A DNA stretch of 64,000 nucleotides from NCBI GenBank assembly GCA_020073495.1, contig JAIQFD010000001.1:372001-436000 (forward strand), read 5' to 3'. Positions 296 to 13,962 of the stretch are shown here, one piece after another (the first letter of the stretch is position 1; each line of letters starts with the position of its first letter). Source of the stretch: Terriglobia bacterium. GTDB taxonomy: Bacteria; Acidobacteriota; Terriglobia; Terriglobales; Acidobacteriaceae. The notes beneath the pieces were generated by a model. That model had not been told where the DNA came from and did not search any database. It saw nothing but the letters and a program-made list of their open reading frames with translations. Position numbers and translations under genes: made by a program.

Positions 296-1174
296 TCAGC
301 GAAGCTTGTAGGGGCGCCCGCGGTACATGCCGACACGTTCAACGCCTCGAACGCGGATCAATTGAACGCTGACATTATCGCTGCCGTCGCGTTGATTGGC
401 AATCGCGACCAGTTCGTGCGCCGCTTCCTGCAAGTCAGCGCGCCGGCTGACGGCGTGGGCCATCTCCGATTCGGTGACCGGGCCGTGCAGCCCGTCGGAA
501 CACAGCAGCAGGACATCGCCGGGAAGAAGGAGGTTCTCGCAACAGTCGACGGCGACGAAAAGATCGTTTCCCAGCGAGCGGCTGAGGAGGTGGCGAGTGG
601 GTGCCGCAGCCGCCTCGCGGGCTGAGAGCACGCCCAGCCGGAACTGCTCACCGGCGACGGTATGGTCGCGGGTCAAGAGCCGGGCGTGGCCGCGCCGGAT
701 GAGGTAACAACGCGAATCACCCACGTGGGCCACGACTGCATGATCGAAGCGAAGAGCGCAGGCCACGATGGTGGTCGCCATGGCCACAGCCCTGGGTACG
801 GCCGTGCGCCCAGCGTCGTACACATGGGTATTGGCCGCCTGGATCAGACGCGTCAACAAGGCGGCGTGGGGTTCGTCTTTCGGAGCTGTGCGAAAGCCAG
901 CGGCCAGGTCGTCCACCGCGGTGCGAGAGGCCACGTGTCCCTGCTCCTGTCCGCCGACTCCATCGGCCAGCGCGAACATCCAGCCATGAGTGCGGGCCTG
1001 CTCCGGCGTCGCGGGAAGCGCATGGCCGAGATAATCCTGGTTCTGCTCGCGCACGCAGCCGTGGTCGGAAAGCTGCGCGAACTCGAGATCCAGCACAGAC
1101 GTATGCGCAGGACGGTGCGTGCCGGAGAGCTTGCCGGCCCCGCCAGAGAGCGGCCCTCGAGATTGCTTCAACAT
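296..1174 (-). CDS. PP2C-family Ser/Thr protein phosphatase
   Basis: This 292-residue protein has the PP2C (PPM) metal-binding motifs in order: SDHGCVREQNQD near residues 36-47, ALADGVGGQEQG near 69-78, VAHVGDSRCYLIRRG, LLLCSDGLHG, and the C-terminal GSDNVSVQLI. No membrane segment is visible, so it is probably a cytosolic Stp1/PrpC-like phosphatase that removes phosphate from proteins modified by the kinase encoded directly downstream. I chose the ATG at 1174, which has AAGGAG only 3 nt upstream. A TTG two codons upstream at position 1186 or one codon downstream is possible and would barely change the product. Confidence 0.9.
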   Translation of the reverse strand: MLKQSRGPLSGGAGKLSGTHRPAHTSVLDLEFAQLSDHGCVREQNQDYLGHALPATPEQARTHGWMFALADGVGGQEQGHVASRTAVDDLAAGFRTAPKDEPHAALLTRLIQAANTHVYDAGRTAVPRAVAMATTIVACALRFDHAVVAHVGDSRCYLIRRGHARLLTRDHTVAGEQFRLGVLSAREAAAAPTRHLLSRSLGNDLFVAVDCCENLLLPGDVLLLCSDGLHGPVTESEMAHAVSRRADLQEAAHELVAIANQRDGSDNVSVQLIRVRGVERVGMYRGRPYKLR

Positions 1175-1190
1175 TTGCTCCTTCAAGAAG

Positions 1191-1210
1191 GGGCGGGCCT
1201 AAGCCCGCCC
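1191..1210. terminator. GC hairpin between permease and phosphatase genes
   Basis: An 8-bp perfect stem (GGGCGGGC / GCCCGCCC) with a 4-nt loop lies between the permease stop and the phosphatase start. It may act as a terminator for the permease transcript. The following T-run on the minus strand is weak, so an mRNA-stability role is equally possible. Confidence 0.4.
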
Positions 1211-1234
1211 ATTCTCACGAGCAATCGCACGTCG

Positions 1235-3037
1235 TCACACCGCCTGTGTCCGGCTTGCGACCAGCGTGGTCCTCCCCATCGTGCGACTGCTGCGGACAAA
1301 GAAGATCCCACCGTAGATCCCCCAGACCAGAGCGATCCCTAAAGCCAGCAGCGGCTCCATCTTTGTGCCGTAGCCCAGGAACGGTCCGACCAGGTAGAAA
1401 ATCATGCAGGCCAGGTTGGCAACCAGCCCGAAGACAGGGATCAAGAGGTGCCGCAGAACGCTGAACTTCGGGTGGCCATGGTAGGCGACGATGCAGATCA
1501 CGCAGCTCAGGCCGTACAGCAGGAAGGTACCGAAGTTCGACGCCAGCGTGATGGTCAGCAGCGAATTGGGCAGCGCCGCCATCTTGTCATGAGTGGTGTA
1601 CCCAAAGCTGGACCAGAAGCCATGGGGCAACGCCTGGATTGCGCTGTCGGTGGGCGCACCGGCGTCGCCGAAGGCCATCACGACCGCGATGCAACCGACC
1701 ACCGCCGAGATCGCCGCCAAGGTCCAGATGGCGCGATGAGGAGTGAGGTTTTTCCCGTGCAGGAAGCCGAAGTGCTCCGGCACTTCCTGATCCTTCCCCA
1801 TGGAGTAGGTCACGCGCGCCCCGGTGTTCATGCAGGACAGAGTGGTTCCGATAAGCGCCAGGAACACGGTGAAGGCCTCGCACAACATGAAGATACGTCC
1901 CCGCCCCGCGCCGAACAGAGCATCGCCCACCATGATCATCATGTCACCGATGGGCGCCGCCGAGCCCGCGGCACTTTGCAGGGTGTAGCCACTGTTGAGG
2001 AAATAGTTCGCCGCAAAGTACTCGAACAGGTAGCAGAACGCCCCCTGGACCAGCAGCGAGACGATGACCGCAATGGGCACGTCGCGCTTGGGATTCTTGG
2101 CTTCGCCGCCCATGGCGGTCACCGATTCGAATCCCACCAGGATCAGGATGGCGACCGTGGCCTGGACGAACACCCAGCCCCAGTTGTGCGCCTTGATCAC
2201 GGAAGCGGCGTTGGAATGGGTCAGGAAATTGCCGCTGTCGTCTTTGGTGGGGTAGCTGATGCGAAACGGCACGGGCTTTCCGGCAGTGTCCAGCTTGGGC
2301 TGCGGGATACCGTCCGGGTTGCGCACGATCGATTCCGTCTCTTTTCCGTCAACGACCGCCTTCTGGGTCGCGAATTCGTAGGTGTACGCCGCACCCGACG
2401 CCGAATCGAACTGGAAGGCTACGCTGCCCGGCGGATGGTTCACGCGATACCCCAGCGCCAGCACGGAGAACACGACCAAGGCTGCGATCTGGATCACGTT
2501 GATGGCAATACTGACCGACGTGGAGCCGTTCACGCCCCGATACGCGATGTAAGCGACTCCGAAGGAGAAGACGATGGCAATCAGCATCATGAATGCCGGA
2601 CCGGGATTGGAGGCATTCATGAAACTCGGCCAGATGGTCCCCACCAGGTAGCCGCAGAGGACTCCCATTACCCCGACCATGACGCCGGGATAGATCCAGT
2701 AATAGAGGTGCGAACCCCAACCGACGATGAACTTGGAAAGCCGGGCGTACCGCCACGCCTTGTCGTGATTGAGGAAGGACTGTTCGGCGAAATAGTAGGA
2801 ACTGCCGGTCCCGGGATACAGCTTCGCCATCTCGGCATAGCACACGGCGGTCGCCAGGCAGAGCGCGAGCGCCAACAAGATCCCGAGCCACATGGCCGGT
2901 CCGGTCACGCCGGTGGTCGCCTGGATGTAGAAGGTCAACCAGAGAAAGGCGCCCGGCGCGATCAGCGCCATGGCATTCATGGTCAAGCCGGTCAAACCCA
3001 GGGTCGGTTTCATCTCAACGGGGGCGTTCGCCGCCAT
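1235..3037 (-). CDS. APC-superfamily amino acid permease
   Basis: This is a 600-residue integral membrane protein with about 12-14 hydrophobic segments. The N-terminal LGLTGLTMNAMALIAPGAF and the GWVFVQATVAILILVGFESVTAMGGEAKNPKRDVP segment are typical of amino acid-polyamine-organocation transporters. A hydrophilic insert of roughly 70 residues (near 220-300, ending NAASVIKAHNWG) is longer than usual. The start ATG at 3037 is chosen because AAGGAGG sits 6 nt upstream; an ATG at 3043 is directly adjacent to the same ribosome site. The substrate cannot be read from sequence. A small membrane protein gene overlaps its start and may be translationally coupled. Confidence 0.9.
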   Translation of the reverse strand: MAANAPVEMKPTLGLTGLTMNAMALIAPGAFLWLTFYIQATTGVTGPAMWLGILLALALCLATAVCYAEMAKLYPGTGSSYYFAEQSFLNHDKAWRYARLSKFIVGWGSHLYYWIYPGVMVGVMGVLCGYLVGTIWPSFMNASNPGPAFMMLIAIVFSFGVAYIAYRGVNGSTSVSIAINVIQIAALVVFSVLALGYRVNHPPGSVAFQFDSASGAAYTYEFATQKAVVDGKETESIVRNPDGIPQPKLDTAGKPVPFRISYPTKDDSGNFLTHSNAASVIKAHNWGWVFVQATVAILILVGFESVTAMGGEAKNPKRDVPIAVIVSLLVQGAFCYLFEYFAANYFLNSGYTLQSAAGSAAPIGDMMIMVGDALFGAGRGRIFMLCEAFTVFLALIGTTLSCMNTGARVTYSMGKDQEVPEHFGFLHGKNLTPHRAIWTLAAISAVVGCIAVVMAFGDAGAPTDSAIQALPHGFWSSFGYTTHDKMAALPNSLLTITLASNFGTFLLYGLSCVICIVAYHGHPKFSVLRHLLIPVFGLVANLACMIFYLVGPFLGYGTKMEPLLALGIALVWGIYGGIFFVRSSRTMGRTTLVASRTQAV

Positions 3038-11147: not shown

Positions 11148-11176
11148 TTGTCCAATCAGAGTAGCCGGATTATGTA
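11148..11176 (+). promoter_or_regulatory. Candidate promoter of the divergent small gene
   Basis: A -35-like TTGTCC (11148-11153) and a -10-like TATGTA (11171-11176) are separated by 17 bp, just downstream of the repeat array. The -10 is poor, as expected for an activator-dependent promoter. A transcript starting near 11184 would have a leader of about 12 nt containing GGAGG before the GTG at 11196. Confidence 0.4.
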
Positions 11177-11195
11177 AAGTTCGGCTGGAGGCGAG

Positions 11196-11360
11196 GTGAC
11201 TTCACTCACGGCAGTTCTGGGTTTCTTATTGCTGTTGGGCCTGCTACTAACCGGAAGTCAGATTCGGCGGCGGCAACTGAAGAGCAACGAGAAAAGGCCA
11301 CACCAGCAGCCAATGAAGGCGAGCACAGCAGCTTTTGGCTGTCAGTCGACAACTCACTGA
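11196..11360 (+). CDS. 54-residue membrane peptide divergent from kdp
   Basis: A GTG-started frame (GGAGG 4 nt upstream) encodes TSLTAVLGFLLLLGLLLTG, one strong membrane helix, followed by a basic tail (SQIRRRQLKSNEKRPHQQP). It is preceded by the operator array and promoter described above and is the only plus-strand frame here. Function is unknown; co-regulation with K+ uptake is inferred from position only. Confidence 0.45.
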   Translation: MTSLTAVLGFLLLLGLLLTGSQIRRRQLKSNEKRPHQQPMKASTAAFGCQSTTH

Positions 11361-11403
11361 CCTTTGGCCACGAGGATGCTTACAGTTTCGGCTCTCTGGT
11401 CGA

Positions 11404-12009
11404 TCATGATTCGCTGATACGGTTACTCGTCTCCAGGATCGAAACGATAACCAACCCACGGCTCAGTAATAAGGTAGCGCGGCGCGATCCCAGCGCCAAC
11501 TGGCCCTTGCGGCAGAGGTCGATAGCCTCGGCCAGCGATTTGATCGAGTACTGGTCGGCGTGGAAACCCATGGAGTTCTCGGAGATCATGAAGTCGATGT
11601 AGAGCTGCGCCTGGCGCTGGTATTGGCGCGCTTGCTCCATGTCGGTTTCGCTGGCGCCGGCGTCCTTGGCCGCCTTGATGTCGTGGATCAGGTCCATGAG
11701 GGCATCGAGGGCGATGTTGCACGTGTCATAGAAGCGGGTCTGGATCTCCTCGACCCGGTCCTTCAGCTCCTTCTCCGGCCAGCGATGACAGGTCTGGCAG
11801 GCGCGGTTGATGTTGAGCAGGGGCGAGCGCACGTCGTGGTCGCTGATCTTCAGGCCGCCCTCGCGGGTGTAGGGCATGTGGCAGTCGGCGCAGGCGTTGG
11901 GGTCATTCGTGAGGTAGGAATAGCCTTTGGCGTAGACGAAGGTGTACAGGCCAAGGCCGAGGGCAACACCAACCAGGATGCCGAGGACGATCGTCGCAGT
12001 GCTTCGCAT
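11404..12009 (-). CDS. Chimeric cytochrome: NrfH N-terminus joined to NrfA C-terminus
   Basis: Residues 1-40 (IVLGILVGVALGLGLYTFVY, AKGYSYLTNDPNAC) are the membrane anchor and first heme approach of NrfH, the quinol-oxidising subunit of nitrite reductase. From residue 40 the sequence reads CADCHMPYTREGGLKISDHD, then VRSPLLNINRACQTCHRWPE and later ENSMGFHADQ (H150), which is the C-terminal part of pentaheme NrfA with its last two CXXCH hemes. The join falls at the heme motif, where NrfH normally has CANCH. The catalytic CXXCK heme and six or so other hemes of a normal NrfHA pair are absent, so nitrite reductase activity is not expected. It may be a deletion product. The last 20 residues look unlike NrfA. 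Confidence 0.75.
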   Translation of the reverse strand: MRSTATIVLGILVGVALGLGLYTFVYAKGYSYLTNDPNACADCHMPYTREGGLKISDHDVRSPLLNINRACQTCHRWPEKELKDRVEEIQTRFYDTCNIALDALMDLIHDIKAAKDAGASETDMEQARQYQRQAQLYIDFMISENSMGFHADQYSIKSLAEAIDLCRKGQLALGSRRATLLLSRGLVIVSILETSNRISES

Positions 12010-12030: not shown

Positions 12031-12459
12031 CTAGCGGAGCGCGCCCAGTTGTGTGCCGGCCCCGCCGTGGCAGGCACCGCACATCATCTGTCCTTCCATG
12101 GAGTTCAGCTTCCGCTGAACCGCGACTGCGGTGCCGTCCTTGCCATCGTCGGAAGTGTCGTGATCGAGATGGAAGCGGACGGCGTCCGACAAGCGCGATT
12201 CCAACTCCAGTTGCTGGCGGATGACTGGATCGCCGCTCGTGATATGCACCCGCGTCATTGCCATGGTGCGCAGGAGGTCTAGGATCTCAGCGGTCTGGGC
12301 CTGCTCTTCTTGGAGTTGCCGCATGGGGACTACACGGATCAAGGCGCGCTTGGTCATGCGCGGCCCGGGGGCGTCTTCCAGCCCATAGCGAGGTTGCGGG
12401 GCCTGGGCATCGAGGGGAATAGCCAGAACGAGGACGACAAGGAACAGGAAGCGTTTCAT
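12031..12459 (-). CDS. Periplasmic monoheme c-type cytochrome, unknown partner
   Basis: The 142-residue product has a signal peptide (MKRFLFLVVLVLAIPLDAQA) and a single C-terminal heme motif CGACH at residues 127-131. The start ATG at 12459 has AGGAGG 6 nt upstream. The middle is helical and charged. It lies 21 bp before the NrfH/NrfA chimera and may pass electrons within this cytochrome cluster. No named family is recognised. Confidence 0.7.
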   Translation of the reverse strand: MKRFLFLVVLVLAIPLDAQAPQPRYGLEDAPGPRMTKRALIRVVPMRQLQEEQAQTAEILDLLRTMAMTRVHITSGDPVIRQQLELESRLSDAVRFHLDHDTSDDGKDGTAVAVQRKLNSMEGQMMCGACHGGAGTQLGALR

Positions 12460-12624: not shown

Positions 12625-13962
12625 CTAGTGCGCAACGGGCTTCTTGGCCGGCGCAGGTGGTACGGCCGGCTTTTTCACCGCGCGCGGGGCGGGCGCCCGC
12701 ACCGCCGGGACAGCGCCCTTGCGCATCTGCTCGGCCAGATCCCTGATCTCGGTGAGGTCGCGGCGCATCTCGCTCCAGCCGTACCAGAGAGCGTAGTCCG
12801 GACTTTGGTGGAAGGTGCCCTGGAAGGCTCGCATGCGATGTTCCAGGTGCATGACGAAGAGCTTCTGCTCGATCACGGTGGGGGCGTCGTGGAAGGTCAG
12901 CAGGTCGGGGAATGGGTAGGCGTAATTGGCCGGCTTCTTGAGCACGCCGTCCTTGTAGAGCGCCGCGACCGCCCGGATGGCTTCGGCCAAAAGGTGGTCG
13001 GCTTCCCGGATCATGTCGTCGCCCTTGGCCAACTGTTGTTTGGCGAAGTTCGAAGAGTGGCACTGGTTACAGGTCTTGAGCGCCTTGTCGCGCTCCTGCT
13101 GCCAGTCGTTCTGGTCGAGACGTGCCACTTCGGCGGCCTTCACTACGTCGAGCCGGGCGGTGGGTTTGCCAGCAGGATCGAGCACACCCAGTGCCTGGAG
13201 GATGACGGCGCGGTCGGCGGCCCACTGCTTGTCATCGGGCATGGGCAGGCGGACGGCGAGGAAGCCCCAAGCGGTGCGCACACCGTGGTCGCCGTTCTGC
13301 ATGTGGCAGGTCTGGCAGGTGGGTGCGGCCGAGGTTTCGGGGATGGCCTTGGTCGCGATCAGCGTATGGCGCACGCCGTGCTTGGACGAGGAGTACATCT
13401 CCCACTGCGGGTGGTCGAAGCCCATGTGGCAGGTCTGGCAGGCCTCGGGCTGCTTGGCCTCGGCGACGGAGAAAGTGTGGCGCGTGTGGCAGGAGTCGCA
13501 GGAGGCGACGCCAAAGCCGCCCGTCGTCTGGCGAAGCTCCTTGATCTCCTGGTCAGTCTTGAGGCCGATCTTGTGACAGCCGCCGCAGCCCTTCATGCCC
13601 TCGATGAGCGCCATGGGCTGATAATGGATGGTGGGCATGGCTTTCATCGCGGCCCAGGCAAAGGAGTGCTTGCCCTTGGTGAACTGCGCGAGCTGGCGAT
13701 CGTGGCAGGCGCCGCAGGTATCGGGGGTGGGGATCTTGACCTGGTCAACGTCCTTGGCGGAGTGGTGCTGGTCGCCGTGACAGACGTCGCAGGTGATGCC
13801 GCCTTTGCTGTGCTTCGACAATTCCCAGTCAGAAACGATGTTGGGCGTGACGCCCTTATGGCAGGTCACGCAATCGGAGGGTTTCGCCGCGGCGGGCTGC
13901 TGGGCTGAAACGACGATCGGAAGAAAAAGGATGAATGCGACGACGACCGCTCTGTAGCTCAT
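12625..13962 (-). CDS. Octaheme c-type cytochrome, hydroxylamine oxidoreductase-like
   Basis: The 445-residue product has a signal peptide and eight CXXCH motifs: CVTCH, CDVCH, CGACH, CGGCH, CDSCH, CQTCH, CQTCH and CNQCH. The segment CHMGFDHPQWEMYSSSKHGVR and the C-terminal helical region ending YALWYGWSEMRRDLTEIRD fit the HAO-like octaheme family. Members either oxidise hydroxylamine or, when the crosslinking tyrosine is absent, reduce hydroxylamine or nitrite; I cannot settle which from sequence alone. The tail is Ala/Pro/Lys-rich. AGGAG lies 8 nt before the ATG. It heads a small cytochrome cluster and acts in the periplasm. Confidence 0.85.
   Translation of the reverse strand: MSYRAVVVAFILFLPIVVSAQQPAAAKPSDCVTCHKGVTPNIVSDWELSKHSKGGITCDVCHGDQHHSAKDVDQVKIPTPDTCGACHDRQLAQFTKGKHSFAWAAMKAMPTIHYQPMALIEGMKGCGGCHKIGLKTDQEIKELRQTTGGFGVASCDSCHTRHTFSVAEAKQPEACQTCHMGFDHPQWEMYSSSKHGVRHTLIATKAIPETSAAPTCQTCHMQNGDHGVRTAWGFLAVRLPMPDDKQWAADRAVILQALGVLDPAGKPTARLDVVKAAEVARLDQNDWQQERDKALKTCNQCHSSNFAKQQLAKGDDMIREADHLLAEAIRAVAALYKDGVLKKPANYAYPFPDLLTFHDAPTVIEQKLFVMHLEHRMRAFQGTFHQSPDYALWYGWSEMRRDLTEIRDLAEQMRKGAVPAVRAPAPRAVKKPAVPPAPAKKPVAH

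Follow-up and report, generated by a model that had tools for sequence, protein, structure and literature searches.

The closest described systems are the two components encoded by nrfHA operons. NrfA, the pentaheme cytochrome c nitrite reductase (PF02335), has five heme motifs, the first of which is usually CxxCK (excerpts of PMC12285233). NrfH, a tetraheme anchor of the NapC/NirT family (TIGR03153, PF03264), holds four c hemes, and the quinol-side one has the motif CxxCHxM (excerpts of PMC12285233 and PMC8840924). Within the window, i.e., the whole stretch of 64,000 nucleotides analysed here, an open reading frame of 201 amino acids on the minus strand (11404-12009) displays similarities to both. 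As in NrfA, the helices of the C-terminal part and hemes 4 and 5 are present, but hemes 1-3, the active site with its catalytic heme, the calcium site, and the native C-terminus are missing. Like NrfH, it has a membrane helix and the sequence leading to the first heme, but none of the NrfH heme motifs is kept as such, so that the anchor's own heme set is lost, CxxCHxM included. No NrfH-NrfA fusion was named among the titles and abstract beginnings listed by a literature search, and the excerpts of a study on Geobacter cytochrome mutation rates (PMC12977616) contained nothing on motif recombination.

A two-part frame joined at a heme motif

Judged by profile matches and tblastn comparisons with relatives, this frame consists of NrfH up to its first heme, NrfA from heme 4 to near its C-terminus, and a tail unrelated to NrfA. 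When the whole protein was scanned, residues 39-178 matched PF02335 (E 1.8e-42, 146 bits against a curated cut-off of 24.1), covering only positions 246-385 of the 438 in the profile, while at the N-terminus NapC/NirT and NrfH were matched only below cut-off. Searching the halves separately, as the earlier note had advised, returned NrfH for the N-terminal part and NrfA for the remainder: residues 11-45 matched positions 2-36 of TIGR03153 (E 1.2e-8), and residues 39-173 matched NF008339, the model of NrfA, starting at its position 288 (E 1.8e-26). Both NCBIfam equivalog cut-offs were missed by a wide margin, with 94 bits vs 595 for NF008339 and 39 bits vs 134 for TIGR03153. Solved structures pointed the same way. 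Among 24 structure sequences listed at E <=1, 22 were NrfA or octaheme nitrite reductases (E 1e-10 or better), all of which aligned only from residue 38-39 onward; the other two were weak matches to NrfB (E 0.19) and to a designed protein (E 0.47), and NrfH was absent from these 24.

The NrfH-derived part (residues 1-39; 11893-12009, minus strand) is predicted from the TIGR03153 match and from tblastn to the nrfH genes of relatives to be an NrfH-type membrane anchor running into the first heme, in agreement with the initial reading of residues 1-40. The NrfA-derived part (residues 40-173; 11491-11892, minus strand) is 78% identical in amino acids to the NrfA of genome G016. It carries the only two CxxCH motifs of the fusion, compared with the five heme motifs that are the norm in NrfA: CADCH at residues 40-44 (11878-11892), identified as NrfA heme 4 by alignment and by the structure-sequence search, and CQTCH at residues 71-75 (11785-11799), which aligns with heme 5.

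The assignment of everything from CADCH onward to the NrfA C-terminus thus holds for residues 40-173 and fails for the last 28, residues 174-201, which together with the stop codon occupy 11404-11490 and could not be aligned to NrfA. The native NrfA stop is lost, and the composition of the tail is not protein-like: third-position GC is 0.61 vs 0.93 in the NrfA part, and overall G+C is 0.53, the lower value of the flanking stretch, vs 0.62. A plus-strand frame at 11165-11490 matched nothing except itself among 61 genomes, own genome included, and none of five frames around the residue-174 border reached a Pfam cut-off, the one weak match being to DUF6234 (E 0.026). A second breakpoint at residue 174 is possible.

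The junction and its counterparts in other genomes

We compared the junction DNA with 11 nrfH and 12 nrfA genes of relatives, which stand in for the presumed parent genes. The DNA is nrfH-like as far as GCCTGCGCC and nrfA-like starting at GACTGCCACATGCCC, and GCCTGCGCC (11887-11895, minus strand) is a putative microhomology that occurs both at heme 1 of nrfH and at heme 4 of nrfA. A heme motif thus stands at the junction, as would be expected of an internal deletion bounded by direct repeats. It had been claimed that both genes carry CA[ND]CHM at this point. This is true of NrfA, and the methionine directly after CH in the fusion (CADCHMP) is of the NrfA type, whereas the relatives' NrfH reads C[AT]NCHVM, or CANCHAM in L118. 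The normal adjacency of the two genes was borne out in 11 related loci of 10 genomes, where nrfH and nrfA, as called from open reading frames, overlap by 4-209 bp. In the same loci nrfH heme 1 and nrfA heme 4 lie 1292-1381 bp apart, so that a loss of 1.29-1.38 kb between motifs in the same register yields the observed frame; that a deletion between the two heme motifs would do so had been the reasoning of the earlier note. Since both motifs encode CxxCH in the same register, the in-frame state is no evidence of selection. Pairs of nrfH heme 1 or heme 2 with nrfA heme 4 (H1xA4, H2xA4) were within the four best-matched heme-motif pairs in 7 of 8 loci, the exception being L114; in these eight, further pairs often match as well, for example H1xA1 or H1xA2.

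The fusion was sought in overlapping samples of 398 genomes of the family, 399 of the class, and 396 of the phylum. Matches to it, own genome included, were found in 17, 37, and at least 98 of these, respectively, and by hand count the NrfA heme-4/5 region occurred in about 130 genomes among the matches listed. Neither these draws, among the matches listed, nor 64 contig loci contained a second fusion of heme 1 to heme 4 or any similarity continuous across residue 40, the finding that had been named as decisive against a chimera. By tblastn the two halves lay on separate genes in 58 of the 64 loci, and the other six gave the NrfH side only. Motif-to-motif distances in the 58 ranged from 593 to 1484 bp; the value of 593 belongs to L048, with reversed gene order, and the rest fall within 1266-1484 bp. 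This KSB1 bacterium locus (L048, 244-2102) seemed to match residues 1-171, and proved to hold two genes, nrfA followed by nrfH. Seventeen plasmid records were matched, none covering 80% of the fusion, and the best 10 of the 17 start at residue 39-40.

Listed NrfA-side matches with open frames of about 315 amino acids or less were inspected singly. Those in G076, G131, and the second copy of G178 are frameshifted, G779 has a full-length nrfA with a TGA, G088, G562, and G729 hold partial NrfA frames, and the matches in G589, G974, and G632:C420 lie at contig ends; none of these displays an nrfH-nrfA joint. The second nrfHA copy of G178 (L157, G178:C119) accompanies a long-frame nrfA on contig C185, and its frameshifts may be either decay or sequence error. 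Joints were present only in G760 and, as scrap, in G084. The search for the same fusion elsewhere thus returned two parallel nrfHA remnants in place of a second copy.

G760, which belongs to another family of the phylum, resembles the window in that the 5' end of nrfH runs in register into nrfA heme 4, the two meeting at a heme motif (L151, G760:C9:18000-23000, 1142-1762, minus strand). It differs in that its junction is at NrfH heme 2, its anchor contains an in-frame TAG, and its C-terminus is NrfA-like with its own stop. The downstream gene, presumably encoding an outer-membrane protein, is the same as in its congener G779 (83% over 191 amino acids). In G779 (L152, G779:C328) both nrf genes are full length. 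A TGA interrupts the nrfA frame (764-2227, minus strand) at the motif of heme 3 and may reflect decay of the operon there too or a sequence error; in another congener, G770, both genes are stop-free. Changes in the NrfA part, with G770 as outgroup, were 20:21 (nonsynonymous to synonymous) in G760 vs 10:23 in G779, a difference that is not significant (Fisher p 0.15) and for which the stop in its own nrfA makes G779 an imperfect control. Meanwhile, G084, from the window's own family, holds an nrfH anchor, a linker scrap, and an nrfA C-terminus (L159, G084:C18:34500-39500, 2447-2856), all within about 400 bp and in three frames, with stops including one in the anchor. Some of the stops in G760, G779, and G084 could be sequence errors. 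We interpret the window, G760, and G084 as probable separate losses caught at different stages, that of the window being the youngest.

Heme ligands, constraint, and gene neighbourhood

To compare functional residues, we aligned the fusion with 74 other segments of 134 residues, all ungapped, stop-free, and motif-filtered, the others being dropped. The position 7 residues before the first cysteine of heme 4 is histidine in 73 of the 74, the sole exception being the G760 fusion, and leucine in the window. We take this histidine to be the distal axial ligand of heme 5 (E. coli H275); its loss follows from its place upstream of the junction. Both H44 and H150 are retained, the latter presumably the distal ligand of heme 4, so that the two would form the heme-4 ligand pair, while H58 would be the distal ligand of the lost heme 2. 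The spacings of the E. coli NrfA ligands assumed here agree with the alignment of the fusion. Residue 97 is arginine in 66 of the 74 segments and cysteine in the fusion. At positions that do not vary among 11 relatives, the fusion has two further changes of its own, no more than are seen in most relatives (0-11).

These residues indicate that one bis-histidine heme may form and that the second, without its ligand, is probably not properly ligated. The protein is predicted to be unable to reduce nitrite. The earlier description of a membrane-anchored diheme protein without a catalytic heme is thus upheld for the catalytic loss and the two motifs, while the presumed ligand of the second heme is gone. 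Since electron storage is the role ascribed to NrfA hemes 4 and 5 (excerpts of PMC12285233), the kept NrfA part would have no catalytic role of its own.

The frame is free of stops over 201 codons and is preceded by GAGG before its ATG. Tajima counts against G016 NrfA were even with three outgroups (9:11, 10:9, and 10:9), with no rate increase visible, which suggests that the fusion is either recent or constrained. These features, together with the third-position GC of 0.93 in the NrfA part, speak against decay. The next gene upstream (12031-12459, minus strand) ends 21 bases before the start of the fusion, and the two are likely co-transcribed. Its protein has one CxxCH motif, near the C-terminus, belongs to no Pfam family, and has relatives in 11 of 397 other genomes of the family, at most 36% identical. 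Farther upstream, 12625-13962 (minus strand) encodes an octaheme cytochrome with eight CxxCH motifs, counted by eye. It is distantly similar to the HAO/HDH group (PF13447, E 1.2e-32) and to hydrazine dehydrogenase, scoring 91 bits against NF052343, for which the cut-off is 900. Of 16 genomes selected for comparison, G239 alone has a close orthologue (71%, with one TGA in frame), and a distant match (38%) occurs in the congener G001, in which neither nrfH nor nrfA was found.

The own genome (3.7 Mb, scored 100% complete) contains no second copy of the fusion, which is its sole PF02335 match over cut-off; a second match, at 19.4 bits, falls below. The missing middle of nrfA had no match at cut-off elsewhere in this genome. 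Three PF03264 matches lie in frames of 522-1087 amino acids, two of them over cut-off and all unlike NrfH in size.

Origin of the fusion and its implications

Based on these findings, we consider it probable that the fusion is a relic, most likely non-functional, of a lost nrfHA operon for nitrite reduction to ammonia (DNRA). Recombination or replication slippage between the CxxCH-coding repeats of nrfH heme 1 and nrfA heme 4 would have removed about 1.3-1.4 kb from an ancestral operon of the membrane anchor NrfH and the nitrite reductase NrfA. As the two repeats share motif and register, the product would automatically be one open frame, and the relic would so far have acquired no stops. The deletion mechanism, the lack of function, and the young age of the fusion are our interpretation of this pattern. 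Of the three readings offered by the earlier note, that of a deletion mutant is the best supported, given the parallel broken nrfHA remnants in two other genomes. Because those in G760 and G084 remain, the TGA of G779 leaves this assessment unchanged.

Had the fusion instead been retained as an anchored cytochrome of one or two hemes, it might serve as an electron carrier linking the quinone pool with the octaheme enzyme two genes upstream. The open frame with its ribosome site, the likely operon with two cytochrome genes, the absence of rate acceleration, and the conservation of H44 and H150 are all compatible with such a role, and a young relic and a retained small cytochrome cannot be told apart from sequence alone. 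We nonetheless regard retention as unlikely, for the fusion occurs in one genome only (in the draws, among the matches listed), the NrfH heme motifs are all gone along with the quinol-side CxxCHxM heme, the presumed heme-5 ligand is missing, and the NrfA stop has given way to a tail of non-protein-like composition. Moreover, the octaheme orthologue of G239 has no nrfH-like neighbour in the surrounding 7 kb, and the nrfHA of that genome lies on another contig. For the new electron-transfer protein that had been proposed, the positive evidence amounts to an open, unaccelerated frame.

Intact nrfHA reads might also have been joined wrongly at the heme motifs, which are indeed repeats. Such an assembly collapse is unlikely for a repeat this short: the exact match at the window's junction is about 9 bp, the longest run shared by the two motifs is 5-8 bp in 11 loci, and even the nrfH of L110, which agrees with the fusion motif in 17 of 18 bases, has its mismatch inside. 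In addition, the contig measures 830 kb, and the own genome holds elsewhere neither the nrfA middle at cut-off nor an NrfH-size match. Hardly credible is an old gene family of chimeras that arose without any recent deletion. Similar layouts do exist in G760 and G084, but NrfH heme 2 is the point of fusion in G760, where the window has heme 1, and the two genes stand apart in the G760 congeners G779 and G770, which argues for independent events.

More speculatively, and in our judgement improbably, recombination between nrfHA heme motifs could repeatedly give rise to anchored mini-cytochromes in frame, this one kept as a quinol-side relay for the octaheme enzyme. The relic reading has implications for how multiheme genes decay and recombine, as deletion between in-register CxxCH-coding repeats can give an open chimera. 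Such a chimera exceeds the Pfam cut-off for NrfA, so that its genome could be wrongly credited with the reduction of nitrite to ammonia, while the stricter NCBIfam cut-offs reject it.
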